NCBI GenBank assembly: GCA_021849365.1
Contig: JAJZSZ010000005.1
Span: 1-36,477, forward strand
DNA from: Bacteroidota bacterium
Lineage (GTDB): Bacteria > Bacteroidota > Bacteroidia > Bacteroidales > Prolixibacteraceae
Length of the DNA stretch: 36,477 bases
Reading direction: 5' to 3'
The position numbers were made by a program, and so were the translations under genes. A model generated the notes under the pieces. It was given only the letters and a program-made list of their open reading frames with translations, did not search any database and was not told where the DNA came from. Position 1 is the first letter of the stretch; each line of letters opens with the position of its first letter. Below, one piece after another: positions 6,516-35,426 of this stretch.

Positions 6516-6550
6516 TTAACTTTTTTCTATCTTTGGCGTTAAATATACAA

Positions 6551-11562: not shown

Positions 11563-11573
11563 TACTCACTATC

Positions 11574-12764: not shown

Positions 12765-12782
12765 TCATTTAAAATCAAGATT

Positions 12783-13112: not shown

Positions 13113-13124
13113 TCAGATAATTAA

Positions 13125-13155
13125 CTGTGGCAGCTTTATGGTTGCCACGGTTTTA
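13125..13155 (+). terminator. Putative rho-independent terminator
   Basis: CTGTGGCA / TGCCACGG stem (13125-13132 / 13143-13150, one G.U) followed by TTTTAT. Confidence 0.55.
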
Positions 13156-13229
13156 TATAAATTGCAACTTAAAGTAAAATAAGTTGATTTTTATTAGCAA
13201 ATAATAATTCACACCTATTCTTACTCAAA

Positions 13230-13643
13230 ATGACAAACGACGAAATTGAAAAGAAACTTGAATTGAAAAACGTGAAACCAACAGCCATGCGAACGTTGGT
13301 TTACAAAGCACTTGTTGATTCGGGGAAAGCGCTGAGCCTGGCGGATTTGGAGCAACGATTTGATAAAGTTGAGCGTTCAACCATATTCCGGGCGCTTAAA
13401 TCGTTTGAGGATAATTTTATTGCTCATACAGTTGATGATGGAACAGGTTCGGTTAAGTATGCCGTTTGCGATGAGGATTGTACCTGTAATTTACATGACT
13501 TGCACGTTCATTTTTATTGTAAGCGTTGTGGAAGAACCCGTTGCATGAAAGAACTTCCTATTCCCAACATTAAACTGACTGACGGCTACTCGTATGAGAA
13601 TGCTCAATTCATTATTACCGGGGTGTGTCCACGCTGTGAGTAA
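13230..13643 (+). CDS. Fur family transcriptional regulator
   Basis: PTAMRTLVYKALVDSG...LADLEQRFDKVERSTIFRALKSFEDNFIAHTV...LHVHFYCKRCGRTRCMKELPIP...GVCPRCE; Fur wHTH plus C-terminal Cys pairs. Confidence 0.9.
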   Translation: MTNDEIEKKLELKNVKPTAMRTLVYKALVDSGKALSLADLEQRFDKVERSTIFRALKSFEDNFIAHTVDDGTGSVKYAVCDEDCTCNLHDLHVHFYCKRCGRTRCMKELPIPNIKLTDGYSYENAQFIITGVCPRCE

Positions 13644-13646
13644 CTT

Positions 13647-13661
13647 TGCAACAGTGTTGCA
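13647..13661. promoter_or_regulatory. Putative Fur-family operator (7-1-7 palindrome)
   Basis: TGCAACA-G-TGTTGCA perfect inverted repeat; matches 6501-6515 and shares flanking TTTGCAAC...GTTGCA(T/C)TAACTT; TACTTTTG (-7-like) at 13674-13681. Confidence 0.65.
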
Positions 13662-13724
13662 CTAACTTGTTTGTACTTTTGATGTTGATATTATTAAAAT
13701 GTCCAACATTAAAAATTATTAGTT

Positions 13725-14249
13725 ATGAAAACAAGAAAATTTAAATTGACTTTTTTGCTGGCAGGATTACTGGCCCTTTCTGCATCACAGGTGATGGCGC
13801 AGCATGGCTGTTGTAACTCAAATTGGTCGGCTAATGTTGATGCCCAATGGTGGAATAACAACACCCCAGCAGAATATGCTTTAAAAGCCGGACAAATTAC
13901 GGAAATCAACAAACTTCGTAAAAACAGCTACGAAACAACACTTCCAATCGAAAATGAGCTTCGTAGTTTGAGAATTGAATATCAGGCAGCAAATTCAAGT
14001 CCCGACCTGGATGTTGAAAAAGTGAAATCATTGAGAAGCAGTATCAGGGCCAAAGAAGAGAAAATTGACGACATCAATTTGGAAACAAAGCTCCAAATCA
14101 AGAAACTTCTTAATGAAAAACAACAGGCCTATTTCAACAACGACAAATATACCTGGTGGGATATGGCAGAAAACTGCTGGTATGCGGGTAATATGGAAAT
14201 GAAATCACGTGGACGAATGATGATGTCACGTCGTAATGATTGTTGGTAA
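13725..14249 (+). CDS. Spy/CpxP-like periplasmic protein (heavy-metal sensor/resistance type)
   Basis: Signal peptide; helical LTxxQ-like sequence (GQITEINKLRKNSYETTLPIENELRSLRIEYQ); CC and W-rich segments. Confidence 0.7.
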   Translation: MKTRKFKLTFLLAGLLALSASQVMAQHGCCNSNWSANVDAQWWNNNTPAEYALKAGQITEINKLRKNSYETTLPIENELRSLRIEYQAANSSPDLDVEKVKSLRSSIRAKEEKIDDINLETKLQIKKLLNEKQQAYFNNDKYTWWDMAENCWYAGNMEMKSRGRMMMSRRNDCW

Positions 14250-14636
14250 ATGAAATACTATTTTGAAAAAACAATAAATTACTCTTTTGAAGAAGCAGTA
14301 GAGAGGGTAACCGAAGAACTAAAAAAGGAAGGTTTCGGGGTATTAACAGAGATTGATGTGGCTGATACCCTGAAAAAGAAACTCGATGTGGATTTCAGAA
14401 AATATAAAATCCTGGGAGCGTGTAACCCGCCTTTTGCATACAAAGCTTTGCAGGCAGAGGATAAAATTGGCACTATGCTGCCATGCAATGTAATTATTCA
14501 ACAAATTTCAGAAACACAAACCGAAATAGCAGCAGTTGACCCGGTTGCTTCCATGCAGGCAGTTCAAAACGATAACTTGATTGGAATTGCAAAAGAGATA
14601 CGTTTAAAACTTGAAAAAGTGATTAACGCACTTTAA
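14250..14636 (+). CDS. DUF302 domain protein (copy 1)
   Basis: 128 aa; FEEAVERVTEELKKEGFGVLTEIDV...YKILGACNPPFAYKALQAEDKIGTMLPCNVI, typical DUF302. Confidence 0.88.
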   Translation: MKYYFEKTINYSFEEAVERVTEELKKEGFGVLTEIDVADTLKKKLDVDFRKYKILGACNPPFAYKALQAEDKIGTMLPCNVIIQQISETQTEIAAVDPVASMQAVQNDNLIGIAKEIRLKLEKVINAL

Positions 14637-14664
14637 TAGTATGTTCAATTAAATTATGAAAATT

Positions 14665-15132
14665 ATGAAAAAGATATTATTTGCTATTGCATTGCTGTTT
14701 TCTGCCGGTTTTGTTTTCTCGCAGGAAATAAACAAAAAACCATATAAAATTATTGTGGGTGCCAGGGTGAATCCTTTGGTTATATATGACTTTGACGGGA
14801 ATCGTACCGAGGCCGTTCGTTTACACGGGGAGATAGGACTGATGTGGAACAAACGCTGGTACTTTTCAGCAGGTTATACCCCGTTTATGAACAGTATTTA
14901 CACCTTCAATGAATACTGGTTTGTAGGGATGGATAAAAAAATTCCCGTTTCGTTTGTTGCTTCGGCGGAGTATATGGCTGACGACAACAAATTTATTTTA
15001 CAGGGAGGGCCAAACATAAAACTTCAAGGCGGAAATCTTTTTGCTTTTTTGTTCACCCCAATGGACAAATTGGATTGGGGATTGAAAATTGGTGGATTTA
15101 TTCCGCTTAATGTTGTAATTAAAGAGCGTTAA
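14665..15132 (+). CDS. Secreted protein of unknown function, possibly a small outer-membrane barrel
   Basis: ORF 14656-15132, second in-frame ATG at 14665; signal peptide KKILFAIALLFSAGFVFSQ; alternating aromatic strand-like sequence. Confidence 0.55.
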   Translation: MKKILFAIALLFSAGFVFSQEINKKPYKIIVGARVNPLVIYDFDGNRTEAVRLHGEIGLMWNKRWYFSAGYTPFMNSIYTFNEYWFVGMDKKIPVSFVASAEYMADDNKFILQGGPNIKLQGGNLFAFLFTPMDKLDWGLKIGGFIPLNVVIKER

Positions 15133-15151
15133 ATAGGTAAAATGATTTTTT

Positions 15152-17239
15152 ATGAAGAAATTTCGATTAAAAAATCTGGATTGTGCTTCGTGTGCCTTAA
15201 AGATTGAAGACAACCTGACAAAGCTGGGAGAAGTAAAATTTGTGACTGTGAATTTTGCAAATTCGACCATGACCATCGATACCGACAACCTTGAAAAGGT
15301 AAAAGCCCGCATTAAGGAAATAGAACCGGAGGTTGAACTGGAAGACATAAATAAAGAGAAGGCAATAGTTTCGACAAGCGAACTTGCAGAAAACAAATGG
15401 CAAATTATAAAAGCTGTTTCAGGGATTCTTCTGTTGGTTGCCGGAATGGTGTTCGAAAAAGAAATACACAACACACCTTTTCATATTGGCGAGTATTTGG
15501 TATTCGGAACTGGTTACCTGATTGTGGGCTGGAAGGTTATTTCGTCAGCAGTGAAAAACATTATCCGTGGTCAGGTTTTTAATGAGCACTTTTTAATGGC
15601 TATTGCCACACTTGGCGCGGTTGCAATAGACCAAATGCCCGAGGCGGTTGCGGTAATGTTGTTTTATGTGGTAGGCGAATTGTTCCAGGATATTGCTGTT
15701 AACCGTTCCCGAAAATCAATCAAATCACTGCTCGAAATAAAACCGGAATATGCAAATTTGGTAGTCGATGGAGAATCAGTTAAGGTTGCTCCTGAAAGCA
15801 TTCAGGTTGGCGACACGATTCTGGTGAAAGCCGGGGAGAAAATCCCCCTCGATGGCGAAGTAATTGATGGAAATTCATTCGTTGATACCTCAGCCCTAAC
15901 CGGCGAAAGTGTGCCACGAAAAGTAAAAAAGAACGATTTGGTTTTATCCGGAACGATTAATCAAACCGCAGTGTTAACAATCAAAGTCACAAAGTTATTC
16001 AGCGAGTCGTCTGTATCGAAAATTCTGGAACTGGTCGAAAACGCATCCTCTAAAAAGGCAGAAACCGAAAAATTCATCACCACATTTGCCAAATACTATA
16101 CGCCGGTGGTGGTGGTCAGCGCTTTGTTGCTGGCCCTACTGCCGCCTCTTTTGTTTAGCGGCCAAACATTCAGCGAATGGATATACCGGGCATTGGTGGT
16201 ATTGGTTATTTCCTGCCCCTGCGCTTTGGTAATCAGTATCCCTTTAGGATATTTTGGAGGGATTGGAGGCGCTTCCCGAAAAGGGATTCTGGTGAAAGGC
16301 TCCAACTTTCTGGATGCGTTGACACAGGTAAAAACTGTGGTGTTTGATAAAACAGGTACACTCACAAAAGGAGAGTTTAAGGTTTCGGAAGTTGTTACCT
16401 CTAACGGTTACACGAAAGAAGAAATACTGGAATATGCAGCGTATGCCGAAACCAATTCAAACCATCCGGTGGCCAAATCAATTTTGGAAGCCTTTGGTAA
16501 CGACATCGAAAGCAAAAGAATTGAGCAGGTTGAAGAAATTTCGGGGCATGGCATAAAAGCCGTAATTGACAGAAAAACAGTGCTTGCGGGCAACGATAAA
16601 TTACTTCACAAAGAAAACATTGACCACCCGGTTTGTAACGTGGAAGGTACAGTGGTGCATGTAGCTATTGATAAGGTTTATATGGGTTATATAATTATTT
16701 CGGACACCCTGAAAGATGATGCCATTGAAGCAATCGAAAAATTGAAAGCAAAAAGCATTCAAACTGTAATGCTTACTGGTGACAACAAATTTGCGGCATC
16801 AGCCTTTGCTAAAAAATTAGGTATCGACAAATTCTTCTCTGAACTGTTGCCCGAAGATAAAGTAAAACACATCGAAAGTTTAATGGCCGAAAATAAGGGC
16901 GGAAAAGTAGCTTTTGTTGGCGATGGGATAAACGATGCCCCGGTAATTGCCCGTGCCGATGTTGGAATAGCCATGGGAGCCCTTGGCTCTGATGCTGCAA
17001 TCGAGACTGCCGATGTGGTGCTGATGACTGATTCCCCATCGAAAGTTGCCGTAGCTATTGATGTTGCTAAGAGGACACGAAACATTGTCTGGCAGAACAT
17101 TTATTTTGCTATGGGTGTAAAATTGGCTTTTATCGTTCTGGGCGTATTTGGCGTCGCCACCATGTGGGAAGCGGTGTTTGGCGATATGGGAGTTGCCTTG
17201 ATCGCTGTTTTTAATGCGATAAGGATATTAAAGAAATAG
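15152..17239 (+). CDS. zntA: Heavy-metal translocating P-type ATPase (ZntA/CadA type)
   Basis: HMA-like [35 protein letters not shown] motifs. Confidence 0.93.
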
Positions 17240-17250
17240 GACGCATTAAT

Positions 17251-17586
17251 ATGATTGAGAAAACATTAACATCATTACTCATTTTTGTCCTTGCTGGTTT
17301 GTGCGAAATTGGTGGCGGTTATCTTGTGTGGCTTTGGCTGAGAGAAGATAAACCGTTTTGGCTTGGTGTTATCGGACTGATCGTTCTCGGATTTTACGGT
17401 GTAGTTGCCACTTGGCAAGCGGCCAATTTCGGAAGAGTTTACGCCGCTTATGGCGGCATTTTCATTGTTCTGGCCATTCTGTGGGGATGGAAAGTCGATG
17501 GTTTTGTCCCGGATAAATTCGATGTTATTGGCGGCGCCATTGCATTGCTGGGGATGTTGATAATCATGTATGCTCCACGTAATTGA
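17251..17586 (+). CDS. YnfA (UPF0060) family membrane protein
   Basis: [21 protein letters not shown]...[46 protein letters not shown]. Confidence 0.92.
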
Positions 17587-19392: not shown

Positions 19393-19779
19393 ATGAACTA
19401 TTATTTTAGCAAAACATTGGAAACTTCATTTGACGAGGCGGTGCAAAAAACCGTTGAAGCCCTTAAAACTGAAGGGTTCGGAGTCATCTCAGAAATCAAT
19501 ATCCACGAGAAACTTAAAGAGAAGCTGAATGTGGATTTTCGGCAATATAAAATACTTGGTGCGTGTAACCCCACTTATGCTTACAAAGCATTACAGGCTG
19601 AAGACAAAATTGGCACTATGTTGCCTTGCAATGTGATTGTTCAGGAACTATCTGAAAACCGCATCGAAGTGGCAGCAGTAAATCCTATTGCTTCCATGAT
19701 GGCAATACAGAACTTGTCATTGGCTGGCATAGCACAGGAGGTAACAAAAAAACTTCAATCAGTAATAAAATCGTTATAA
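19393..19779 (+). CDS. DUF302 domain protein (copy 2)
   Basis: 128 aa; shares YKILGACNP..AYKALQAEDKIGTMLPCNVI with 14250-14636. Confidence 0.88.
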   Translation: MNYYFSKTLETSFDEAVQKTVEALKTEGFGVISEINIHEKLKEKLNVDFRQYKILGACNPTYAYKALQAEDKIGTMLPCNVIVQELSENRIEVAAVNPIASMMAIQNLSLAGIAQEVTKKLQSVIKSL

Positions 19780-21160: not shown

Positions 21161-21210
21161 TATGTCGTAGATATACGTCGTATTAAAATTAAACGTATAT
21201 TTACGTCGTA
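21161..21210. promoter_or_regulatory. Putative ArsR operator region
   Basis: ATATACG(21171-21177)...CGTATAT(21194-21200) inverted repeat plus TACGTCGTA direct repeats (21174-21182, 21202-21210), just upstream of arsR. Confidence 0.5.
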
Positions 21211-21227: not shown

Positions 21228-21563
21228 ATGGTAATAGCAAAGACAGAACTTTTCGATGAAGCGCTTCAAATAAGGGCTAGTTTATTTAAAGCATTGGCTC
21301 ACCCTGCCCGGTTGCAAATTCTTCAGTTCCTGGCCGAGACAAAAACCTGCATTTCGGGTGATATTTCGGAAGAACTTCCTTTAAGCCGTACAACCGTCAA
21401 TCAGCATCTGAAGGAATTAAAAGATGCTGGACTTATTCGTGGACACGTGGAAGGAGTAAAAACCAACTATTGTCTGGATTATGAAAAGGTAGTAGAAATG
21501 AAGGAGATTTTGTCGGGATTTTTGAACGGAATAGAATTGCCGGAAAATTTCTCTTGCAAGTAA
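21228..21563 (+). CDS. ArsR/SmtB family transcriptional regulator
   Basis: RASLFKALAHPARLQILQFLAETKTCISGDISEELPLSRTTVNQHLKELKDAGLIRG wHTH. Confidence 0.92.
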   Translation: MVIAKTELFDEALQIRASLFKALAHPARLQILQFLAETKTCISGDISEELPLSRTTVNQHLKELKDAGLIRGHVEGVKTNYCLDYEKVVEMKEILSGFLNGIELPENFSCK

Positions 21564-21620: not shown

Positions 21621-22463
21621 ATGAACTCAATGAAAGGATCACTTTTATCGCTTACTGTAATTAGCTTATGGGCATTAACAGCCTGCGGCAATTCAAATGC
21701 TGTCAACAAACAGGCAAGTCCGGTTACCGAAACAACCCAAACCTCTCAACCGGAACAGCCAACAGCATTATCTGCAAGCAATTCAAAAATTCAGACTGAT
21801 CTGGAGAAAGCAAAAAAAGAAGGGAAAGCTGTTTTTGTTGTAGTAACCGGAACCGGCGTAACCGAAACTGATAAAGCCACGACAATTGCCAAAGGAGCGA
21901 ATAACATCTATAAAAATGCTGCTGTTGTTCAGTTAGACAGAGACGATGCTGCCAATTCTCAATTGGTAGCAGAATGGAGATTAGCAGGAGCGCCACTTCC
22001 TCTTGTGTTGGTTGTTTCGCCCAAGGGTCAGTTAACGGGAGGAATGGTACTTGCCCAGGCTACTGCTGAAAATATTGCTGCCCTTGTTCCATCTCCAAAA
22101 CTGGAAGAAGTTCAGGAAGTTATTAATAGTAAAAAACCTGCTTTTGTCGTGTTCACAAAAAAATCATATAGTGATCGTGCTGAAGTAATTCAGGCATGTA
22201 AAGAAGCCGTAACGATATTAAAAAATAATGCTGCGATAATTGAAGTGGATTTGGATGACATTAAGGAAGCTAGTCTTATTGACAGGCTTGAAGTAGACAA
22301 ATCATCCAAGGAAACCACCACGCAAGTTGTCAATGTTCAGGGACAAATTGCCGGAACTTCGTCGGGACTACCTGATGCAGCCAAATTAGCCGCAGCAGCC
22401 ATAGCGCCGCCCAAAAGCGGATGTTGTCCGGGAGGAGCAGGGTCATCAGGTTGTGCAAAGTAA
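21621..22463 (+). CDS. Lipoprotein with two thioredoxin-like halves and a Cys-rich C-terminus
   Basis: Lipobox LTAC; two similar alpha/beta halves (AVFVVVTGTG.. / AFVVFTKKSY..); C-terminal SGCCPGGAGSSGCAK. Confidence 0.6.
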   Translation: MNSMKGSLLSLTVISLWALTACGNSNAVNKQASPVTETTQTSQPEQPTALSASNSKIQTDLEKAKKEGKAVFVVVTGTGVTETDKATTIAKGANNIYKNAAVVQLDRDDAANSQLVAEWRLAGAPLPLVLVVSPKGQLTGGMVLAQATAENIAALVPSPKLEEVQEVINSKKPAFVVFTKKSYSDRAEVIQACKEAVTILKNNAAIIEVDLDDIKEASLIDRLEVDKSSKETTTQVVNVQGQIAGTSSGLPDAAKLAAAAIAPPKSGCCPGGAGSSGCAK

Positions 22464-22485
22464 ACTGTCACAAAACTTTAATTCG

Positions 22486-23703
22486 ATGAGATTAACAGAT
22501 TTAACATTAAAGGAACTTTGGCACCGAAAATCGCAGCTTGTTTCGGGATTGTTGGCCATTACGTTGGGCATTGGTGTGATTGTAGGAATACGCTCGTTCT
22601 CTGTAGTATCGGAAAAAGCCGTGGCTGTGAACCTTGATAATTTGGGGGCAAATGTATTGGTGCTTCCACAGGCGGCCAGCGTTGACAATTATTATTCAGC
22701 CGACATTGATGCTCCTACTTTTCCTGAAAGCTATGTCGAAAGAATAGTTACGTCCACTTTGCCCGGTGTCGATAATTTGTCGCCCAAACTAACACGAAGA
22801 GTTAATATAGGCAATGAAAACATTGTGCTGACAGGCATTCTGCCCAAAAGCGAAATAGCATCAAAACCCATTTGGCAACAGGGAGGTTTAATGACTAAAA
22901 AAGTGGCCGCAAGTTGCGCCCCAAAACCCGGAGCCGAACCTGCAAAATATCTGGATGCAAAACTTCAGCGAAAGGGAATTGACTCTTTGGCAGAAGCAGA
23001 TTGTTTTATCGGTTCGGCAGTCGCACAAAGGCTCAATCTATCGGAAGCAGGTACGTTGGCAATCGAAGGCAAAACCTTTACCATTGTGAAAGTTTTACCT
23101 GAAACAGGTACTGTGGACGACGACCGCGTATTTGCAAACCTGCATACGGTTCAGGCACTTTTGGGCACTGGCGAGCAAATCAGCGCCATTGAAATTATGG
23201 GCTGTTGCAGCGAAATTTCCGAAGGGCTATTGGGAAAGCTTAGAAATGTACTGCCTGACACCCGAATTACAACCATTGGTCAAATTGTTTCTACTCAAAT
23301 AGAAACCAACAGAATGATGAATAAAATATCTCTGGTATTTCTCATCATCATCCTTTTTGTTGGTAGCATATCCATTGGCAATTACATCTGGGCAAACGTA
23401 AACGAACGCCGGAAGGAAATCGGAATACTCCGGATGATTGGTTACCACAAAAGGGATATTTACTATATCCTTGTGCTAAAAGGTATCATCATTGGCCTTT
23501 TGGGTGGTATTGCCGGTTATATTCTTGGAACTTTAGGCGCAATCTGGCTTGGGCCACAATTTGCCGGAATCGCGGTCAATCCGATTTATACGCTGCTCCT
23601 TGTTTCTATCGCCCTTTCAATTTCAATTTCAATTTTAGGATCAGTCATTCCTGCTTATCTGGCCGGAAAAATAGAACCATTTTCAAACATGCAGGAGGAT
23701 TAA
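22486..23703 (+). CDS. ABC transporter permease (MacB/FtsX-like)
   Basis: ATG at 22486 (ORF opens at a GTG at 22453); MRLTDLTLKELWHRKSQLVSGLLAI... C-terminal FtsX TMs (VNERRKEIGILRMIGYHKRDIYYILVLKG). Confidence 0.85.
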   Translation: MRLTDLTLKELWHRKSQLVSGLLAITLGIGVIVGIRSFSVVSEKAVAVNLDNLGANVLVLPQAASVDNYYSADIDAPTFPESYVERIVTSTLPGVDNLSPKLTRRVNIGNENIVLTGILPKSEIASKPIWQQGGLMTKKVAASCAPKPGAEPAKYLDAKLQRKGIDSLAEADCFIGSAVAQRLNLSEAGTLAIEGKTFTIVKVLPETGTVDDDRVFANLHTVQALLGTGEQISAIEIMGCCSEISEGLLGKLRNVLPDTRITTIGQIVSTQIETNRMMNKISLVFLIIILFVGSISIGNYIWANVNERRKEIGILRMIGYHKRDIYYILVLKGIIIGLLGGIAGYILGTLGAIWLGPQFAGIAVNPIYTLLLVSIALSISISILGSVIPAYLAGKIEPFSNMQED

Positions 23704-23705
23704 TT

Positions 23706-24419
23706 ATGCTGATACAACTGAAAAATCTCACGAAGACCTATCAACATCACGATGGGGCAATTAATGCAGTTGATAACCTTTCGCTCGACATACCCAAAGG
23801 TTCGTTCGTAACCATCACTGGCGCATCAGGTTCGGGCAAAACAACTTTATTGCTGATTCTTGGTGGCTTATTACGTCCAACTTCAGGAAAGATGAGCTAC
23901 AACGGTAAGGAAATCGACCTGCACCATGACGAAGAATTAGCCAATTTCCGCAGCAATCATGTCGGGTTTGTCATGCAAAGCTTCGCTCTCGTTCCTTATC
24001 TTACTGCTATCGAAAATATCATGATCGCCCTGAATGTGAAAAACAGCAACACGACTGAAAATAGAAAACGGGCGCTGGAATTGTTGGAATGGGTCGGTTT
24101 GGAAGACCGCACCACGCATTATCCCAAAGAACTATCGGCAGGGCAACAACAGCGTGTGGCTATTGCCCGTTCGTTGGCCAACAATCCTGATCTGCTGCTC
24201 GCCGATGAGCCTACCGGCAACCTCGATCCCGGATTATCCGAAGAGATACTTGGTATCTTGAAAGAGATCAATCTAAAACAAAAAACGACAGTAGTCATGG
24301 TTACCCATAGCCCAATGGCTGCCGAATACGGTGATACCAGAATTCAGCTTCAGAATGGGAAATTACACAATCTTCATTTAAATGATGTTAAGATAAATGT
24401 TGAAGTATCAGTGAATTAA
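23706..24419 (+). CDS. ABC transporter ATP-binding protein (LolD/MacB-like)
   Basis: GASGSGKTTLL Walker A, LSAGQQQRVAIARSLANNPDLLLADEPTGNLD. Confidence 0.95.
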   Translation: MLIQLKNLTKTYQHHDGAINAVDNLSLDIPKGSFVTITGASGSGKTTLLLILGGLLRPTSGKMSYNGKEIDLHHDEELANFRSNHVGFVMQSFALVPYLTAIENIMIALNVKNSNTTENRKRALELLEWVGLEDRTTHYPKELSAGQQQRVAIARSLANNPDLLLADEPTGNLDPGLSEEILGILKEINLKQKTTVVMVTHSPMAAEYGDTRIQLQNGKLHNLHLNDVKINVEVSVN

Positions 24420-24523: not shown

Positions 24524-25411
24524 ATGTTTAAAAAGATTTTGATTGCAACAGATTTGTCAGAGTCATCAGATGCAGTTATTAATTGCATGAAAGACTTTAA
24601 GACATTGGGAGTAGAAGAAGTAATTCTTTTTTATGCGTGTGGAATTGACAACAATGATACACTGGCAGAATATACTAAAGATTTCTACGAGCCTGACCTG
24701 CTAAAGCAACAAAAGGTAATTGAGAACCAAGGATTTGTGACTACACTTGAAATCGTTCCGGGTGGCGCTTATGAGGAGTTAAAGAAAGTAGCTAAACGAA
24801 CGGATGTTTCTTTGATCATCATTGGCTCGCAAGAAGTTAATGTTTACAATCAGATATTAAACTTTTATGGAAATGTAAACTCTGAGATACTGCATGTCCA
24901 TGAAAAGCCGCTTTTAATGATTAGTACCAATGTAGTTGAAAACGATGGGAAAAGGATATTTGTATGTTTAAACAAGAATTTAAATGATAGAATCTTGTTT
25001 GCAACTGACTTTTCTGACATTTCTATGAGGGCATTTTCGTATGTCGAAAAGCTGGTTGAAGACGGTTGTAAAAAGGTTACGCTTTTTCACGTCCATGAAA
25101 AAGTAAAAAGATGGTTTACCAATTCTGATCAACTGAAAGAATTCAACCGCATTGATACTGAACGGTTGGAAGCGCGGAGACAGATTCTACTGAACAAAGG
25201 CGCTGAAGAGGTAGAATTAAAAATTTTAGTTGGAACTCCTTCAGTACAAATACTCAAAGAATCAAAAAATGACTATACGCTAATTGTAATGGGTAGTCAG
25301 GGCAGAGGTTTTTTACAGGATATTTTTATTGGTAGCGTAAGTCTGAATGTGGCAAGAAAGACAAAAGTATCCTTGTTGCTCATACCACCTGCTGACCGGA
25401 AAATTCCATAA
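24524..25411 (+). CDS. Universal stress protein, tandem UspA domains
   Basis: KKILIATDLSESSDAV ... ILFATDFSDISMRAF ... VMGSQGRGFLQDIFIGSVSLNVARKTKVSLLLI; RBS AGGAGGG upstream. Confidence 0.9.
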   Translation: MFKKILIATDLSESSDAVINCMKDFKTLGVEEVILFYACGIDNNDTLAEYTKDFYEPDLLKQQKVIENQGFVTTLEIVPGGAYEELKKVAKRTDVSLIIIGSQEVNVYNQILNFYGNVNSEILHVHEKPLLMISTNVVENDGKRIFVCLNKNLNDRILFATDFSDISMRAFSYVEKLVEDGCKKVTLFHVHEKVKRWFTNSDQLKEFNRIDTERLEARRQILLNKGAEEVELKILVGTPSVQILKESKNDYTLIVMGSQGRGFLQDIFIGSVSLNVARKTKVSLLLIPPADRKIP

Positions 25412-25437: not shown

Positions 25438-25785
25438 ATGATGAAACTCGAAATATTTGAACCATCGCTTTGTTGCGATAGCGGTGTTTGTGGGCCAGAG
25501 CCTGACAAAGTACTTATTGACCTGCAAAATACCATTCAGTTATTAAAAAAAGCTGACGTGGAAACCAAACGATATGCCATTAACCAGGCACCGCTTGTGT
25601 TTGTCCAAAACGTGGTTGTCAGGGATTTTATCAAGGCAAACGGACCGGGCAAGTTACCGCTGGTATTGCTCGATAATCAAATCATCAAAACCGGAGGCTA
25701 TCCAACGATTGATGAACTTAAAGCGCTTATCCCTGATTTGCACGGAATAGAACCCGACACGAAAATTCTTGGAATTTTTAGCTAA
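25438..25785 (+). CDS. arsD: Arsenical metallochaperone ArsD
   Basis: LEIFEPSLCCDSGVCGPEPD keeps the CC...C metalloid site; directly upstream of arsA. Confidence 0.93.
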   Translation: MMKLEIFEPSLCCDSGVCGPEPDKVLIDLQNTIQLLKKADVETKRYAINQAPLVFVQNVVVRDFIKANGPGKLPLVLLDNQIIKTGGYPTIDELKALIPDLHGIEPDTKILGIFS

Positions 25786-25805: not shown

Positions 25806-27641
25806 ATGACACAATACATATTCTTTTCAGGAAAAGGTGGAGTCGGTAAAACAACGATGGCAGCCACCACCGCAGTTTATCAATCAGGCAAAGGTAAACG
25901 CACTTTGCTGGTATCAACCGACCCGGCAGGAAACCTGGGCGATATTTTTGAACGCAAAGTAGGCGTTGAACCCACACAGGTTGCACCAAATCTGTCGGTT
26001 GCCCAAATGGATTCGGACGCCATTACCGATGCTTACAAAAACCGGATGCTCGGACCACTTTCTGCTATTCTCGATGAACTGGCACTGGCACAGGTTAAGG
26101 AAGAGTTCAACGGAGGTTGCACGGTGGAGATTGCCACTTTCGATAAGTTTACCGATTTTCTGGGTGATGAAACCTACGACCTGATCGTATTTGATACGGC
26201 TCCAACGGGACATACTCTTCGATTGATGACCTTACCAAACGAATGGGATAAATACATCAAGAAAAGCTCGGAAGGAAGCGGACAAACCTGTATTGGCCCT
26301 GTTTCGCAGATTGAGGGAGCAAGGGCAAAGTACGCACATGCTGTTCAGATGATGCAGGATGCCAGTCGTACCGTTGTGTATCTGGTTAGCCGTCCTGAAA
26401 AAACTTCGGTTTACGAAACCTTTAGGGCAAGAACGGAGCTTGAAAAAACGGGCATCCACAACTTTCACCTTATTATCAATGGCGTTTATCCCAATCATGG
26501 AGCAACATCAGGAATTTTCGGAAAACTGGCCGAAAATCAGAAAATCTATATCAACGAACTTCGAAGCAAATTTCCTAACGACACCTCGGAAGTGCCAATG
26601 CAACAATCGGAAGTAAAAGGTGCCGGTAACATTGCTTTATTGGGACAAATTGCTTTTGAAAAGAAAGTCGCGACCTTACATGGTGGCTTCGCCGAAAGTA
26701 AACCTTTCCAGGGGTTTGCCTCCACAGAGATTCTTACCAGATTGCTGGAAAAGAAAAATCATAGCCGTATCGCTATTTTGACAGGAAAAGGAGGTGTTGG
26801 GAAAACGGTAACAGCCTGCACAGTGGCCATGAAGTTGGCAGAGAAAGGCAAAACTTTACTTTTTACCACCGATCCAGCAGCGCATATTGGGCAGGTACTC
26901 GAAACCAATGTTACCCATATTCCGGTAAATGTAACAGGTAACCTGTGGGCCGTTAACATCGACCAAAAAGAAGCGGTTGAAGAATACCGTCATAAAATAT
27001 TAGAAGATGCAAAGTCAAACGGCTACACTCCGGAATTGATTTCTGCACTCGCCGAAGAACTGGAATCACCATGTACCGAAGAAATTGCCATTTTCGAGCA
27101 ATTCGCCAATTTATTGAACGAACCCGAATGGGATTATTTTGTGTTGGACACAGCGCCGACCGGCCACACCTTGCGCCTTTTGGAACTGCCTTTTGAATAC
27201 AAGAAGCAGCTTGATATGAAACTGAAAGGAAGCATTGATTCTGCAATTACTGAAAATGCCGGAGGTGCAAGTTCCAAAATAGAAAACTTAATTAGCAGAC
27301 TGAAAAATCCGGAAGAAGCGACGTTTCTTTTGGTTGCTTATCCTGAATTCACCCCGCTGCACGAAAGTTTCCGTGCAATGATGGATCTGGAAAGAGTTGG
27401 GATAAAGGTACAAGGGGCGTTTTTAAATCACATCCTGAACAAACAGGATTGTACCGATAGTTTTTCTTTGGAAAGGTGGAAACTCCAGCAACATTATCTA
27501 AATCAGTCAAGGGTAATCTATCATTCAAAGCCCTTGTTTGCCATACCGCTTCAATCCGAAGAAATTATTGGTATTAACCAGGTAAAAGCGCTTTCAGAAT
27601 TGATTTTCAACAAAAAGATAACTCAAAAAATATCATCATGA
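25806..27641 (+). CDS. arsA: Arsenical pump-driving ATPase ArsA (two-domain)
   Basis: Two P-loops (GKGGVGKTTMA, GKGGVGKTVTA), two DTAPTGHTLRL motifs, Cys in NGGCTVEIA/QTCIGP/SPCTEEIA. Confidence 0.95.
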   Translation: MTQYIFFSGKGGVGKTTMAATTAVYQSGKGKRTLLVSTDPAGNLGDIFERKVGVEPTQVAPNLSVAQMDSDAITDAYKNRMLGPLSAILDELALAQVKEEFNGGCTVEIATFDKFTDFLGDETYDLIVFDTAPTGHTLRLMTLPNEWDKYIKKSSEGSGQTCIGPVSQIEGARAKYAHAVQMMQDASRTVVYLVSRPEKTSVYETFRARTELEKTGIHNFHLIINGVYPNHGATSGIFGKLAENQKIYINELRSKFPNDTSEVPMQQSEVKGAGNIALLGQIAFEKKVATLHGGFAESKPFQGFASTEILTRLLEKKNHSRIAILTGKGGVGKTVTACTVAMKLAEKGKTLLFTTDPAAHIGQVLETNVTHIPVNVTGNLWAVNIDQKEAVEEYRHKILEDAKSNGYTPELISALAEELESPCTEEIAIFEQFANLLNEPEWDYFVLDTAPTGHTLRLLELPFEYKKQLDMKLKGSIDSAITENAGGASSKIENLISRLKNPEEATFLLVAYPEFTPLHESFRAMMDLERVGIKVQGAFLNHILNKQDCTDSFSLERWKLQQHYLNQSRVIYHSKPLFAIPLQSEEIIGINQVKALSELIFNKKITQKISS

Positions 27642-27925
27642 AAATTACAGATCAAGCTCAGGTTGAGTTGAAAAAAGCACTTGATAGCTTTGATAAACCG
27701 GGTTCCGGAATTCATGTTTACAGCACACAAGGTTGCTGTGGCCCATCCATACAAATGGACATTGCCACTCAGATAGGGAATGGGGAAACCGCAATTTCAC
27801 TTGAAGGCATTGACTTTTTTGTAGCAAGTGATTTAATGCCTAAACTGGCCGAAGTTACCATTGAATTTGGCACAAATGGCTTCCGTCTAACTGGATTAAA
27901 AAAAGCATCTAATAGTTGTTGCTAA
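27638..27925 (+). CDS. IscA/HesB-like (Fe-S biosynthesis fold) protein
   Basis: MKITDQAQVELKKAL...GCCGPSIQMDIA...DFFVASDL...GFRLTGLKKASNSCC; ATGA overlap with arsA. Confidence 0.75.
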   Translation: MKITDQAQVELKKALDSFDKPGSGIHVYSTQGCCGPSIQMDIATQIGNGETAISLEGIDFFVASDLMPKLAEVTIEFGTNGFRLTGLKKASNSCC

Positions 27926-28000: not shown

Positions 28001-28198
28001 ATGAAGGTTTTGGTAAACTATGTGGTTCAGGATGCAAAAGAACATTCGCATCATTCGGAGATACTTGAAATTGACAGCCCTCCATACAGCTATTCTTCAG
28101 ACCCTCCTGTTCATACGGTTATTAAATGGGTGGACGAGAAACAAAATACACTTCCTGAAGGCCAGAAGATTGTTATAATGAGCATATATAAAATATAA
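28001..28198 (+). CDS. Small protein of unknown function
   Basis: 65 aa ORF with ATG in operon context; no family recognised. Confidence 0.4.
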   Translation: MKVLVNYVVQDAKEHSHHSEILEIDSPPYSYSSDPPVHTVIKWVDEKQNTLPEGQKIVIMSIYKI

Positions 28199-28212: not shown

Positions 28213-28647
28213 ATGAAGGTACTTATTATTTGCAGGGCGAATAGTTGTCGCAGCCAAATGGCAGAAGCCATTCTGAAAAGGTTTGATCCGGATTTAATTG
28301 TCAAATCAGCAGGACCAGAACCGGCAGAAGTAGTACATCCGCTTACCATTCGGGCAATGGCTGAAATTGGGATCGATATTTCACAATCTACAACGACAAA
28401 TATTAATGAATTTGTAACCGAAGATTGGGATTTTGTAATAACGGTTTGCGACATTGCAAAAGAATCGTGCCCTGCATTTTTAGGAAACGTTAAAAACTCC
28501 TTTTACCTGAAATTTGAAGACCCGCTGGCTTATGAGGGTGATGATGAGTTCCTTTTAAATTTGATCAGAACTACCAGAAGCCAAATAGTAAATGAATTTG
28601 AAGATTTTTATAATGAATTTATTAATCAAAAAAATAAAGATCTATGA
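28213..28647 (+). CDS. Low-MW phosphatase-type arsenate reductase-like protein (ArsC paralog 1)
   Basis: [16 protein letters not shown]-loop, [14 protein letters not shown] Cys pair, EDP loop. Confidence 0.85.
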
Positions 28648-29087
28648 CTAAGATGAAGGTATTATTTATCTGTATTCACAATTCGGCTCGAAGCCAAATG
28701 GCCGAAGCTTTTCTCAATGAGTTAGGGGGAGATCGTTTTCAAGCTGAAAGTGCCGGGTTTGAACCGGGAACACTCAATCCTTTGGTTGTAGAAGCAATGG
28801 ACGAAATCGGAATCGATATATCGAAGAAGCAAACTCAAGAAATTTTTGATCTATACCGACAGGGCCGATCATATAGTTTTGTCATATCCGTTTGTGATCA
28901 GGCTCATGCTGAAAAATGCCCAATTTTTCCCGGATTATCTAAAAAGTTGGTTTGGTCTTTCGAAGATCCATCATCATTTATCGGGTCTAAAGAAGAAAAA
29001 ATGGAAAAGATTAGAATTGTAAGGGATAACATTAAAACAGAAATTACGAATTTTATTAAAAACGTTAAAGAAATCGAATTTAAATAA
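28644..29087 (+). CDS. arsC: Low-MW phosphatase-type arsenate reductase (ArsC paralog 2)
   Basis: [16 protein letters not shown]-loop, [28 protein letters not shown] overlap with previous gene. Confidence 0.9.
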
Positions 29088-29092: not shown

Positions 29093-29524
29093 ATGAAAGT
29101 ACTTATTTTATGCACAGGCAACAGTTGCCGCAGCCAAATGGCACATGGTTTTTTACAGTCGTTCGATCCGAACATTACCGTTTGTTCAGCCGGAACCGAA
29201 GCATCGGGAAAGCTGAACCCAAAAGCAGTTGCCGTTATGAAAGAGATCGGCATTGATATTAGTCACCACACTTCCGATTCAGTCGATTTGTACCTCGACC
29301 AGGAATGGGATTATGTGATCACCGTTTGCGGTGGGGCCAACGAAAACTGCCCTGCTTTTTTCGGTAAAGTAAAACACCGCTTGCACATTGGCTTTGATGA
29401 TCCGAGTCATGCAGTAGGAACCGATGAATTTATCTGGAGTGAATTTATCCGGGTAAGGGACGAGATTAAAGAAGGATTCTGGAAGTTTTACAATGAGAAC
29501 ATTTACAAGGCTGAAGGCAAATAA
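29093..29524 (+). CDS. arsC: Low-MW phosphatase-type arsenate reductase (ArsC paralog 3, pI258-like)
   Basis: [63 protein letters not shown]. Confidence 0.92.
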   Translation: MKVLILCTGNSCRSQMAHGFLQSFDPNITVCSAGTEASGKLNPKAVAVMKEIGIDISHHTSDSVDLYLDQEWDYVITVCGGANENCPAFFGKVKHRLHIGFDDPSHAVGTDEFIWSEFIRVRDEIKEGFWKFYNENIYKAEGK

Positions 29525-29580: not shown

Positions 29581-29868
29581 ATGGATAATCTGAAAATTGA
29601 AAAATCTGATTGTACATGCAACAGCGATTGTTGTCAACCCACAAAAGGAAAACTTTGGAAGAAGATTTTATTTGTTGCAATTCTGTTTTTAGCAGTAGCT
29701 ATAGTAAGTTTTAAACTTGTCGGGAAAAGCAATACCAATGCTCAGATCAAAACTAACGCCATTAGCGCTAAGCAATCTAGTTGTTGCGATACAACGGACG
29801 TAAAGGGTAATGTCGGAATAACCAATCCCGAAAAAAATAAATCATGCTGTCAACCAACTAAAAAGTAA
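29581..29868 (+). CDS. Single-TM Cys-rich protein with repeated CCQPTK motifs
   Basis: DCTCNSDCCQPTKGK - TM - SSCCDTTD ... KSCCQPTKK; stop/start overlap with the CcdA-like gene. Confidence 0.6.
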   Translation: MDNLKIEKSDCTCNSDCCQPTKGKLWKKILFVAILFLAVAIVSFKLVGKSNTNAQIKTNAISAKQSSCCDTTDVKGNVGITNPEKNKSCCQPTKK

Positions 29869-30569
29869 TGGAAGAGTGGATACAACAGGTCTTAAGTTCT
29901 GACCAGGCCGGATACACTGTACTAGCAGCAGTTTTTTTATTTGGATTGATCAGCATTTTCACTTGCGGCTGTAATTTTTCTATAATTGCAATTGTTGCAG
30001 GTTATTCCGGAGCCATTGGGTCGTCCGGAAAAACGAAAGCAGTAATATTGAATGGCATTCTTTTTTTTACCGGAATGATTATTTCAATGGCAGTTATAGG
30101 AGCTATCATCGGTTATGCGAGCGAACTGATAAGTACTTCATTTGGAAATTACTGGAAAATAGCTGCCGGTTTAATTTCTATATTTTTCGGGCTTTTTACT
30201 CTGGAATTACTTCCGTTTAAAATGCCAAGTATTACTATCAATCCAACCAGCCCAAAAACCGGAGTTTTTTCTTCTGTGATCTTTGGGTTAACCATTGGAG
30301 GGTTAACATTAGCCTCCAGTTCTTGTTGTAATCCCGTTTTCCCCATTGTTCTTGCAGTTTCGTTTGTTAAAGGCAGTTTCATCTGGGGAATAATGCTGAT
30401 GTTTGCTTATGCACTGGGCTACGGACTGACTTTCACTGCAATTATGATTGGAATTGGACTCGGGTTTGGAAAAACATCCAGAACATTTACAAAACTCGGA
30501 AATGCGTTAAAATACACAGGTGGTATTGTTATGATTATAGTAGGTTTTTATTTGCTTATTACCCTATGA
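29868..30569 (+). CDS. CcdA/DsbD-like transmembrane protein with non-canonical Cys motifs
   Basis: Six-TM CcdA-like sequence; FTCGCNFSIIAIVAGYSGAIG and ASSSCCNPVFPIVLAVSF in place of the usual proline-cysteine motifs. Confidence 0.75.
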   Translation: MEEWIQQVLSSDQAGYTVLAAVFLFGLISIFTCGCNFSIIAIVAGYSGAIGSSGKTKAVILNGILFFTGMIISMAVIGAIIGYASELISTSFGNYWKIAAGLISIFFGLFTLELLPFKMPSITINPTSPKTGVFSSVIFGLTIGGLTLASSSCCNPVFPIVLAVSFVKGSFIWGIMLMFAYALGYGLTFTAIMIGIGLGFGKTSRTFTKLGNALKYTGGIVMIIVGFYLLITL

Positions 30570-30652: not shown

Positions 30653-31681
30653 ATGGATTTTTCGGTTGACTTTCAGTCGTTAAGACCAGTAAATTACGAT
30701 GTGATATCAGTCGCGACTCGGTTGAACTGGCTGGACTATTGGGGTGCGATCAAAGTCCGTTGGGGATTTGGCCGCGATCATTACACAGTCACTCCGGGTC
30801 TATATAAAGTCGGAAAGCCCAATAAAGATTCAGACGTATTCGTTTCGGCAAACTATAAATTGTCTTTCGATACCCTACGCAAAAATCTTGATTCAATCAG
30901 TGCATGGATTTTGGTGCTCGACACCAAAGGTATTAACGTATGGTGCGCGGCAGGAAAAGGAACTTTTGGAACCGACAACCTGGTGAAGAGCATAAAAAAA
31001 ACTTCGCTGGAAAACATTGTAAAGCATCGCAGAATTATTGTTCCGCAGTTAGGAGCCGTTGGAATTGCGGCTCATAAGGTAAAGGAACAAAGCGGATTCA
31101 GAGTAATCTTTGGGCCAACGATGGCTAAAGACATCAAAGAGTTTGTTCAGATTGCATATAAGGCAACGCCCGCCATGCGGCGGATGACCTTTCCCATTCA
31201 GGAACGCTTGAAACTTATTCCTGTTGATTTCATGTATGGAAAATACAAATTGTTAACTGTCATGGCAATCCTTTTCTTTTTGTCAGGACTTGACAGAACA
31301 GGTTTGATTTTTTCAAAGATGCTCGGAACAAGTTCATTTCCACTACTGAATGTTTTTGGAGCCTATTTTTCGGGGATTGTAATCACACCCTTGTTGTTGC
31401 CCTGGATTCCTTTTAGAGCATTTGCTTTGAAGGGCGCAATTTGTGGCGGAATATTTTCACTGTTCGTTGATTCAATATGGCATATTCCGTTGATTGAAAG
31501 CACTGCAATTGGTTTTATAAATTTAAGCATCGCTTCATTTGTAGCCATGAATTTTACCGGTTCTTCTACCTATACTTCGCTTTCAGGAGTAAAAAAAGAA
31601 TTGAAACGAGCGATTCCATTTCAAATCGCTTTTGCCGCTGTCGGGCTGATCCTTTTCATCATTTCAAAATTATTGATATGA
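30653..31681 (+). CDS. hgcA: Mercury methylation corrinoid protein HgcA
   Basis: Cap-helix motif INVWCAAGKGTFGTDNLV (Cys98, codon 30944-30946), upstream PGLYKVG.P..DS.V.VSANYKLSFDTLR...AWILVLDTKG, five C-terminal TM segments, AMNFTGSS..TS.SGVKKELKRAIP. Confidence 0.96.
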   Translation: MDFSVDFQSLRPVNYDVISVATRLNWLDYWGAIKVRWGFGRDHYTVTPGLYKVGKPNKDSDVFVSANYKLSFDTLRKNLDSISAWILVLDTKGINVWCAAGKGTFGTDNLVKSIKKTSLENIVKHRRIIVPQLGAVGIAAHKVKEQSGFRVIFGPTMAKDIKEFVQIAYKATPAMRRMTFPIQERLKLIPVDFMYGKYKLLTVMAILFFLSGLDRTGLIFSKMLGTSSFPLLNVFGAYFSGIVITPLLLPWIPFRAFALKGAICGGIFSLFVDSIWHIPLIESTAIGFINLSIASFVAMNFTGSSTYTSLSGVKKELKRAIPFQIAFAAVGLILFIISKLLI

Positions 31682-31989
31682 ATACCTTGCAATATTTAAA
31701 AAACACAGTCAGCCTGAAACTTGATCCCAATTTGTGCACCGGTTGTGGATTATGTACTGATGTTTGTCCTCATGCAGTTTTTGAAATCAGGAACAGAAAA
31801 GCAAGGATTGTTGATCTGAATGATTGCATGGAGTGTGGTGCATGTGCATTGAATTGTCAGTTTGACGCCATCACTGTGAAATCTGGTGTTGGTTGTGCTG
31901 CCGGGATCATCAACGGAATGCTGGGAAATTCGAATGCTGCTTGTGACTGTTATGTAGAAAGTGATAGAAGTAAAAACAAATGTTGTTAA
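31678..31989 (+). CDS. hgcB: Mercury methylation ferredoxin HgcB
   Basis: Two 4Fe-4S motifs ([34 protein letters not shown]), [10 protein letters not shown]-terminal CC; ATGA overlap with hgcA. Confidence 0.96.
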
Positions 31990-32008: not shown

Positions 32009-33055
32009 ATGATAAAAAAACTTTCATTTTTCGACCGCTACCTCACGTTATGGATATTCCTGGTCATGTTTGCCGCGGTTGTCACTGGCTTTGGGTTTCC
32101 TGGAATTTCAGGCTTCTGGAATTCGTTAAGCTCCGGAACAACCAATATACCCATTGCTATTGGCTTGGTACTGATGATGTATCCGCCACTGGCCAAAGTG
32201 AAATATGAGAAATTACCCTTGGTTTTTAAGAACCTGAAACTTTTAAGCCTATCGCTTACCCAAAACTGGATTGTTGGACCGCTGGTCATGTTCTTTTTGG
32301 CTATTCTTTTCCTGCATAATCAGCCGGGTTTAATGGTCGGCGTTATTTTGGTAGGATTAGCCCGATGTATTGCCATGGTACTGGTTTGGAACGACCTTGC
32401 CAAAGGTGACACAGAGCTGGCTGCCGGATTGGTTGCCTTCAATGCCATTTTCCAGGTATTTCTGTATTCCGTTTATGCATACGTGTTTATTACCCTTTTG
32501 CCTCCATTATTTGGTTTGAAAGGAGCTGTTGTTCAAGTTTCGATTTCGGAGATTGCAATTACGGTTTTGATTTATCTGGGAATACCTTTTGCCGCCGGTT
32601 TGATTTCAAATCTTGTACTTCGCAATTGGAAAGGCAGCGAATGGTATTTTTCCAAATTTATTCCTAAAGTTTCTGTATTAACTCCAGTTGCATTGCTGTT
32701 TACCATTTTTGTAATGTTCTCGTTGAAAGGCGAAAAGATTATCGAACTGCCTGTAGATGTTCTAAGGGTTGCAATACCTTACACCATTTACTTCGGATTC
32801 ATGTTTTTCAGTACCTTTTTTGCAGCCAAATGGATGGGCGAAGGTTACGAAAAATCAACGACAATGGCTTTTACGGCAGGAAGCAACGATTTCGAATTAG
32901 CTATTGCAGTGGCTATCGCCGTATTCGGAATAAACTCACAGGCAGCCTTTGCAACCGTAATCGGTCCGCTAGTTGAAGTACCGGTGATGATTGTATTGGT
33001 GAATGTGGCCTTTTACTTTAAAAGGAAGCTTTTTACCAGTAAAGCTGTTTTATAA
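32009..33055 (+). CDS. acr3: Acr3 family arsenite efflux permease
   Basis: [38 protein letters not shown] and [17 protein letters not shown] Acr3 motifs; ATG at 32009 preferred over 31961, which overlaps hgcB. Confidence 0.94.
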
Positions 33056-33681: not shown

Positions 33682-33719
33682 CTTTGGTAATAATTGCCAA
33701 TATCCGAAAAGCACAAACA

Positions 33720-35426
33720 ATGAAATCCTTCATTACAACTTTGGTGTTACTTGCTATCATTTTTTCATGTTTCAGTCAAAATCCATTGTTCATCCCTCCG
33801 ATTCTTGAAGGAAATAAAGTTAATCTGCATGTACAAAATGGTTCAATGCAGTTTCTTGCAGGAGGTGAGACTGCCACAATAGGTATAAACAGCATCTACT
33901 TGGGGCCGACAGTCATACTAAACCAGGGAGACTCAGTTCAATTGTCGGTATTTAACGATCTCGATGAGCCCACAACCATGCATTGGCACGGGTTACACGT
34001 TCCGGCCAGATTGGATGGAAGCCCTCACAATGTAATTCAGGCACATACGGTCTGGTCCCCCAAGATAAAAGTTTTAGATCTGGCTGCAACGTATTGGTAT
34101 CACCCACACCTTCATGGAAAAACGGCAGAACAGGTTACAAAAGGAGCAGCCGGAATGATTATCGTAAGAGACAATCAGGAATCAACTCTTAACTTGCCAC
34201 GGAATTATGGAGTTGATGATTTTCCGGTTGTTATCCAATCCAGGGCATTTGATTCAAACAATCAGTTTGTGGTTAATACAGCCGATGATCATACCATACT
34301 TATTAACGGAACTATCGATCCTATTTTGAAAGTACCAGCTCAAATTATCCGGTTGCGGGTACTGAACGGCTCAACAAATCGGGTTTATAATATCGGGTTT
34401 CAGGGAAATCATCAGTTTTATCAAATTGCTTCTGATGGCGGGCTGCTGGATTCTCCGGTTGCTTTGACCCGATTAATGATAGCTCCCGGTGAAAGGGCCG
34501 AATTGCTGGTCAACCTTTCGGGATTGAAAGATCAGAACCTGGATCTGTTTTCTTTTGGTTCGGAGTTGCCCAATGGTATTTATGGCGCTGCTGTTCCAGG
34601 CGTTATGGGAATGGGAAGTATTGACGGGTATTCTGCCAATATATTGAATGGTAAAAATTTTAAATTAATCCGGTTATCGGTTACAGATCAAACTGCTCAA
34701 GCGGTTACTACAATACCTTCAAAATTGGTTCTTATGCAGAAGCCCGATCCGAATAAATCATCAGTAACTCGAATCATTACTCTATCTGCGAGCGGCATGG
34801 GTATGGGAAATCTAAGCGGCCCATTTCTTATCAATGGACAAACATTTTCAATGAACCGGATTAACTTTTCGGCCAAGCTGGGAGCCACCGAAATCTGGCA
34901 GATATCTAATCAGACAGCCATTGCCCACCCTTTTCATGTTCATGGGCTTCAGTTTTTCATCACCGACATTGGTGGCAGCCAGCCGGATCGTTCGAGGCAA
35001 GGTCGTAAGGATATTGTTTTAGTACCGGCCATGCAGTCAGTCAGGCTGATTATGAAATTTGATGATTTTTCAGATCCGGAAATACCGTACATGTTTCATT
35101 GTCACATGTTACTGCACGAAGACGATGGCATGATGGGACAATTCCTTGTAACAGGTATTCCAACGGGATTGAATACGCTGGGGGATGATTCCGCAATTCG
35201 AATTTACCCGAATCCTTTTACTGACCGGTTAACAGTTGAAGCTTCAGGAGTTAACCCAAATCTGGTAACAATAGAAATAACCAACAGCCTGGGGCAACTC
35301 TGCCTTCATCAGAAAATATCTGGGTTCCCCGCTACGCTTAATACAAGTAATTTAAAAGCTGGAATCTATGCAATCAGTTTCAAATATGGAGACAGGTTGC
35401 TGATAAAAAAGATAATTCGCTTCTAA
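33720..35426 (+). CDS. Multicopper oxidase with C-terminal T9SS type A sorting domain
   Basis: Cu motifs HWHGLH, YWYHPHLHG, HPFHVHGLQF, HCHMLLHEDDGMMG; C-terminus IRIYPNPFTDRLTVE...LKAGIYAISFKYGDRLLIKKIIRF. ATG at 33720. Confidence 0.93.
   Translation: MKSFITTLVLLAIIFSCFSQNPLFIPPILEGNKVNLHVQNGSMQFLAGGETATIGINSIYLGPTVILNQGDSVQLSVFNDLDEPTTMHWHGLHVPARLDGSPHNVIQAHTVWSPKIKVLDLAATYWYHPHLHGKTAEQVTKGAAGMIIVRDNQESTLNLPRNYGVDDFPVVIQSRAFDSNNQFVVNTADDHTILINGTIDPILKVPAQIIRLRVLNGSTNRVYNIGFQGNHQFYQIASDGGLLDSPVALTRLMIAPGERAELLVNLSGLKDQNLDLFSFGSELPNGIYGAAVPGVMGMGSIDGYSANILNGKNFKLIRLSVTDQTAQAVTTIPSKLVLMQKPDPNKSSVTRIITLSASGMGMGNLSGPFLINGQTFSMNRINFSAKLGATEIWQISNQTAIAHPFHVHGLQFFITDIGGSQPDRSRQGRKDIVLVPAMQSVRLIMKFDDFSDPEIPYMFHCHMLLHEDDGMMGQFLVTGIPTGLNTLGDDSAIRIYPNPFTDRLTVEASGVNPNLVTIEITNSLGQLCLHQKISGFPATLNTSNLKAGIYAISFKYGDRLLIKKIIRF

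Follow-up and report, generated by a model that had tools for sequence, protein, structure and literature searches.

We describe here the mercury-methylation genes hgcA and hgcB of a Bacteroidota bacterium, which lie within an arsenic-resistance (ars) operon. The DNA analyzed, called the window, is a stretch of 36,477 nucleotides (nt) comprising one whole contig (C87) of a metagenome-assembled genome (MAG) of 4.78 Mb that is 91% complete and 5% contaminated. We conclude that a mercury-methylation block encoding a small cysteine-rich protein (CysTM), a CcdA-like membrane protein, HgcA and HgcB has probably been built into this operon between arsC and acr3, where it would be controlled by the regulator ArsR, with the CcdA-like pair assisting. 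The four genes of the block are:

29581-29868, + strand: "CysTM", a 95-amino-acid protein whose single transmembrane (TM) segment has CC motifs on either side; no family scored above cut-off
29868-30569, + strand: hgc-type CcdA-like membrane protein, 233 amino acids, Cys33/Cys35 and Cys153/Cys154
30653-31681, + strand: hgcA, corrinoid protein of mercury methylation, 342 amino acids (NF040863, 412.8 bits, cut-off 275)
31678-31989, + strand: hgcB, 2x[4Fe-4S] ferredoxin with a terminal CC, 103 amino acids (NF040864, 115.3 bits, cut-off 99)

A preliminary description of this DNA had named hgcA from a cap helix and five TM helices, and hgcB from two 4Fe-4S motifs, GVGCAA and a terminal CC, all of which we found where they had been placed. 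The HgcA cap helix NVWCAAGK (GINVWCAAGKGTFG in the translation) fits the N(V/I)WC(A/S)(A/G)GK pattern, and the five hydrophobic segments fall within residues 200-342 or so. In hidden Markov model searches both proteins scored above the curated cut-offs, HgcA aligning over positions 2-324 of the 325 in the NCBIfam model HgcA_corrinoid, which is near full length, and HgcB matching HgcB_ferredoxin (NCBIfam) over its full length. A CdhD match within HgcA (residues 45-164) is as expected of the corrinoid domain. The two genes overlap by 4 nt (ATGA) and acr3 starts 19 nt past hgcB (ATG at 32009), as had been reported. Judged by these features, HgcA and HgcB are members of the mercury-methylation families. 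Phylogenetic placement put HgcA within a clade of Bacteroidota and one Ignavibacteriota entry, and acquisition from far outside the phylum is unsupported by a clade of this composition.

The claim that hgcAB is embedded in an arsenic-resistance operon was also borne out. A co-directional run extends from arsR (21228) to acr3 (33055), with hgcAB between the arsC-type genes and acr3. The largest intergenic gap in this run is about 105 bp, and about 9.1 kb with 13 predicted genes separates the end of arsR from the start of hgcA. ArsR, ArsC-type and As(III) efflux genes are thus found together on one strand with short gaps, and arsR, arsD, arsA and acr3 all score over their cut-offs. The remaining features of the run are:

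21161-21210, no strand assigned: predicted double ArsR operator (21161-21182 and 21189-21210, 28 bp apart); inverted repeats, the second site over a TAnnTTTG-like -7 box
21228-21563, + strand: arsR, ArsR/SmtB-family metalloregulator, presumed repressor (NF033788, 69.7 bits, cut-off 55; PF01022)
21621-22463, + strand: thioredoxin-like lipoprotein with a Cys-rich tail (weak Thioredoxin_6 match)
22453-23703, + strand: FtsX/MacB-type ATP-binding cassette (ABC) permease (PF02687, PF12704)
23706-24419, + strand: ABC transporter ATPase (PF00005)
24524-25411, + strand: universal stress protein (PF00582)
25438-25785, + strand: arsD, As(III) metallochaperone (NF033727, 104.2 bits, cut-off 90)
25806-27641, + strand: arsA, two-domain As(III)-pump ATPase (TIGR00345, 421.6 bits, cut-off 135)
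27638-27925, + strand: small IscA/HesB-like protein ending in CC (NF038090, 31 bits, below cut-off)
28001-28198, + strand: small open reading frame (ORF) inside the run; no family match
28213-28647, + strand: arsC-type gene 1, low-molecular-weight (LMW) phosphatase fold (TIGR02691, 87 bits, below equivalog cut-off; PF01451)
28644-29087, + strand: arsC-type gene 2 (TIGR02691, 114 bits, below equivalog cut-off)
29093-29524, + strand: arsC-type gene 3 (TIGR02691, 137 bits, below equivalog cut-off)
32009-33055, + strand: acr3, arsenite efflux permease (TIGR00832, 414.4 bits, cut-off 282.8)

The three ArsC-type proteins belong to the LMW-phosphatase/ArsC family and carry the LMWPc domain, yet lie under the ArsC equivalog cut-off. 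Thus, the placement of arsD, arsA and arsC upstream on the same strand is correct as to position, while the name arsC must be read as arsC-type. The thioredoxin-like lipoprotein gene precedes the same two ABC genes in L038, L056 and L106 as in the window.

To locate regulatory sites we used a 22-nt near-palindrome, TATGTCGTATRTTTGCGACATA, which is found before arsR in about 60 relatives, has a TAnnTTTG box at its centre and is doubled at 28-bp spacing in several loci. TAnnTTTG is the -7 element of Bacteroidota promoters. A matrix was built from 19 strict sites in the arsR promoters of relatives, with the window excluded. When the window was scanned, the best score (22.4 bits) was at 21161 and the second site (13.4 bits) at 21189, compared to a top score of 17.6 bits in 20 shuffles of the window. 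This predicted operator lies ~9.4 kb upstream of hgcA, and the same scan gave no comparable site near hgcA. A promoter of hgcA's own was considered and rejected, as no operator-like site or inverted repeat occurs between the CcdA-like gene and hgcA. The TTTG-N18-22-TAnnTTTG pattern had zero matches in the window, and a palindrome at 29536, TGGCAATTTAATTGCCA, is unlike the operator and occurs once. Because an operator is found at the head of the run and none at hgcA, the simplest reading is that hgcAB would be reached by arsenic-dependent read-through from the head of the run.

Two other loci place such an element closer. At L040, where ars genes are absent within 6 kb, an operator-like element (17.6 bits) stands directly before hgcA, and at L046, which consists of CysTM-CcdA-hgcAB only and lacks arsR, one of 16.9 bits stands directly before CysTM; each is followed by a second, weaker copy. 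Because these elements directly precede hgcA or CysTM-CcdA-hgcAB, they support the view that hgcAB may be part of the ArsR regulon in this phylum. The preliminary description had predicted that arsenic, through ArsR, could drive hgcAB expression. The operator at the head of the run and those at L040 and L046 favor this prediction, the ~9.4 kb between operator and hgcA does not, and the idea itself is not new (discussed below).

The relatives of the window are Bacteroidota. For hgcA and the CcdA-like gene we sampled ~1,080 genomes from three phyla in all. HgcA scored over the cut-off in 24 of 393 genomes of the order. Neighborhoods were taken from these genomes and from 80 loci matched by the window HgcA, and neighboring genes were annotated by comparison with the window's own proteins. 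This yielded 36 distinct Bacteroidota hgc loci (37 entries, one genome occurring twice) which, being collected by HgcA similarity, are not a random sample. At least one ars gene lies within 6 kb at 30 of the 36; counting at this distance and on the same strand, acr3 is present at 17, arsC at 18, arsR at 23 and the CcdA-like gene at 22. A random 12-kb stretch is expected to hold acr3 in roughly 0.1% of cases, as estimated from 386 genomes, each about 4 Mb, of which 149 hold such an acr3, and the 17 of 36 loci with acr3 beside hgcAB therefore exceed chance. Additionally, the order arsC-CysTM-CcdA-hgcA-hgcB-acr3, with arsR ahead of it, is repeated in independent MAGs (L041/L177, L043, L050, L053 and L106).

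Several observations weigh against our reading of an ArsR-controlled block. The Bacteroidota hgcAB loci L062 and L214 have no nearby ars gene. Within the window, the 9-kb distance from arsR to hgcA and gaps of up to 105 bp leave room for internal promoters or terminators. Lastly, the matrix was trained on related loci, and the window sites reach 22 and 13 bits compared to about 30-36 bits in most relatives.

Two variants of hgcA were encountered in the survey. In G169 (L168, 2670-5024) a decayed hgcA with in-frame stops lies between arsC and acr3 and no hgcB was found; hgcAB is apparently being lost there while the ars operon stays. HgcA-like proteins under the HgcA cut-off occur in G212 (L173, 5248-6513) and G332 (L026), and these are perhaps members of the HgcAB-like fusion family.

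The gene that the preliminary description called ccdA is not an ordinary CcdA and belongs instead to a distinct CcdA-like subfamily; this hgc-linked protein, whose significance the description missed, is the more novel point. Searches against curated families gave no Pfam match above cut-off and at best 20.8 bits to a DsbD fusion model, and because no curated CcdA/DsbD model was matched we use the name CcdA-like. AlphaFold gave a low-confidence model (pLDDT, the predicted local distance difference test, 64), whose sole convincing Foldseek match was CcdA 5VKV (probability 1.00, E 0.011). C35 and C154 are invariant in an alignment of 14 CcdA-like sequences. As modelled, the protein has a CcdA fold with one cysteine in TM segment 1 (TM1) and one in TM segment 4. 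An ArsG-type permease was rejected for lack of any such family match, and similarity to MerE was at noise level (14 bits, E 0.05). CysTM, the partner protein, has one TM segment; relatives, too, carry its gene and the CcdA-like gene as a pair.

When 70 CcdA proteins were placed in a tree, the 35 hgc-type entries grouped together, separate from the CcdA of other ars operons of the order; given the long branches and a support of 89, the limits of this group are uncertain. Of these 35, 33 have an extra cysteine no more than three residues away from that in TM1, compared to 2 of the 35 other CcdA proteins, and 32 have hgcA within 3.5 kb. Of 386 genomes of the order, 16 carry hgc-type CcdA, and in 14 of these hgcA is its neighbor or lies no more than about 2 kb away (Fisher p 1.5e-17, a value that takes no account of kinship and combines two draws of almost the same genomes). 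A phylum sample of 297 genomes contained two, both beside hgcAB. Outside the phylum it was found in 1 of 199 Planctomycetota and 2 of 201 Chloroflexota genomes, sets whose centre genomes had been picked for hgcA. The exceptions include a second copy in G196 and loci in G154 (ArsC-ArsM fusion, CysTM, CcdA, acr3) and G094 (arsR, arsM, CysTM, CcdA), as well as an extra Chloroflexota case, G962 (171 bits), near arsD in a genome with no HgcA over the cut-off. The CysTM-CcdA pair is mainly, not strictly, a companion of hgc, and its exceptions are mostly ars loci. An ArsC-ArsM fusion is encoded at L170 (1987-3216) and similar single ORFs at L038 and L042, all of them ars loci with the CysTM-CcdA pair.

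Castillo and Saier proposed that CcdA in ars operons supplies electrons for ArsC, and the pair could likewise be simply a part of the ars system, unrelated to HgcAB. G154 and G094, which have the pair with arsM (and, in one, acr3) but no hgcA, fit this explanation, as does the distant member near arsD in G962. However, the CcdA proteins in the order's other ars operons are distant ones, nearly all hgc-type entries are near hgcA, and hgc-type CcdA is found by hgcA even without acr3 and arsC (L046, L209, L211) and in other phyla. We therefore consider an ars-only role somewhat unlikely. It is quite possible, if short of probable, that the CcdA-like protein and CysTM are dedicated accessory components of HgcAB, acting in thiol reduction or in relay of mercury or methylmercury at the membrane, which were overlooked as generic ars/ccdA genes, were re-associated with hgcAB and stand beside it in several phyla. 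A search limited to one open-access library found no paper linking hgcAB to CcdA/DsbD.

The operon is, to judge from its trees, a mosaic whose parts differ in their nearest relatives. The window Acr3 is closest (90% identical) to a second Acr3 of the same genome, encoded on contig C334 in an arsR-arsC-arsM-acr3 operon whose DNA composition matches. The nearest relatives of HgcA are G023, G137 and L031, near which hgc-type CcdA was not found, while the CcdA-like protein is closest to that of G129 (76% identical). The HgcA data reject a pairing of the window with G129 (approximately unbiased test, p 4e-69) and with G384 (p 1.5e-5). In the Acr3 tree 21 of 113 proteins are hgc-linked with at least 15 changes of state, and therefore the linkage was gained or lost many times. 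These differing histories would also be expected if hgcAB and ars genes had been gathered by gene transfer into a shared metal island with no common regulation or function, and the window does hold two resistance-nodulation-division (RND) efflux systems, an HMA P-type ATPase and a multicopper oxidase. In contrast, the order arsC-CysTM-CcdA-hgcAB-acr3 is kept in many genomes with overlaps and short gaps, and operators directly precede hgcA (L040) or CysTM-CcdA-hgcAB (L046). Repeated assembly in the same gene order argues for selection, and we regard mere co-location as unlikely.

The position held here by CysTM-CcdA-hgcA-hgcB, between arsC and acr3, belongs to arsM in the paralogous operon and in many relatives. 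HgcAB could accordingly serve mainly to handle arsenic, for instance in place of ArsM, with mercury methylation as a side activity. This is improbable, since arsM and hgcAB coexist in the operons L033, L038, L042 and L207 and are not exclusive alternatives, and since HgcA and HgcB retain the diagnostic residues of the mercury-methylation families. The same four operons exclude replacement of arsM by hgcAB as a rule. Finally, a chimeric contig joining hgcAB to ars genes, conceivable in a contaminated MAG when the window is one whole contig, is very improbable because neither GC content (0.405 in the first part of the window, 0.408 in the second and 0.408 in hgcAB) nor tetranucleotide composition, which fits other contigs of the bin, gives any sign of it, and the same junctions occur in unrelated MAGs.

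Outside the run, the window contains a dense metal-efflux region (552-17586) with two CusA/CzcA-type RND pumps and their adaptors, a P-II-like protein, a Fur-family regulator, the HMA P-type ATPase and a YnfA-family protein. A single ORF of 1463 amino acids (7171-11562) encodes an RND pump fused to an outer-membrane efflux protein domain. Two mutually similar DUF302 proteins are encoded in the metal region at 14250-14636 and 19393-19779, and a similar protein is encoded immediately ahead of arsR at the hgcAB locus L207. Following acr3 is a multicopper oxidase (33684-35426) that is CueO-like and carries a type IX secretion tail.

For an ArsR-controlled mercury-methylation block we infer a chain of steps from what was read in the sequence, namely gene identities, co-directional layout, an operator at the head only, conservation and association. 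ArsR would bind the double operator over the -7 box and block transcription until released by As(III) or another thiophilic ligand. One long message would then supply ArsD, ArsA, ArsC and Acr3, which would reduce and export arsenic, as well as HgcAB, which would transfer a methyl group from methyl-cobalamin to Hg(II). HgcA may be remethylated from methyltetrahydrofolate, a source suggested because MetH was found in the genome and the CdhD family is present only as HgcA, with no other CdhD-type corrinoid protein. The CcdA-like protein and CysTM would most likely keep HgcAB thiols reduced or relay thiophilic metal at the membrane, the least certain step.

Both hgcAB-ars linkage and ArsR control of hgcAB are already published, and the arrangement of the window is not unique. 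Excerpts of McDaniel et al. 2020 (PMC7438021) describe hgcAB flanked by acr3, arsC, arsM and arsR in diverse putative methylators. As in the window, hgcAB in those loci is immediately beside arsenic genes; relative to the loci as excerpted, the window has the full set (arsR, arsD, arsA, three arsC-type genes and acr3) in one run as well as the conserved CysTM-CcdA pair, which these excerpts do not mention. In a rice-paddy study, hgcAB contigs carried arsC, acr3, arsA or arsD, with arsR on none of the contigs examined. Gionfriddo et al. 2023, as summarized in PMC10349881 and PMC13362967, reported control of hgcAB by an ArsR-like regulator in Pseudodesulfovibrio mercurii ND132, where arsenic alters hgcAB expression. 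By these summaries an ArsR-family regulator is expected to control hgcAB by arsenic in ND132 as in the window, but the ArsR-like gene of ND132 is upstream of and co-transcribed with hgcAB, whereas in the window arsR is some 9 kb upstream, at the head of a resistance operon, and no ArsR-like gene is next to hgcA. Like known ars operons with CcdA, the window has a CcdA-family gene inside an ars operon, but its protein is of a separate CcdA-like subfamily with vicinal membrane cysteines that is linked mainly to hgcAB. Similarly, the arsR-arsC-arsM-acr3 operons of the order, including that on C334, share the Acr3 lineage and the upstream arsC and differ in having arsM where the window has CysTM-CcdA-hgcA-hgcB. 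The ND132 study reportedly also saw As(V) sensitivity affected by hgcAB, which would fit a role of HgcAB in arsenic handling. New here are the predicted operator at the arsR promoter of the window and before hgcA or CysTM-CcdA-hgcAB at two other loci, the hgc-linked CcdA-like subfamily with its Cys-rich partner, an undescribed pair, and the mosaic operon with its paralogue.

These results touch on why bacteria methylate mercury, how hgcAB is controlled and which further proteins are required. A gene found mainly beside hgcAB is a concrete candidate for a missing membrane or redox partner. The conserved ArsR operator predicted before hgcAB in Bacteroidota makes arsenic control testable beyond Desulfovibrio-type bacteria and, if true, such control would tie methylmercury formation to arsenic.
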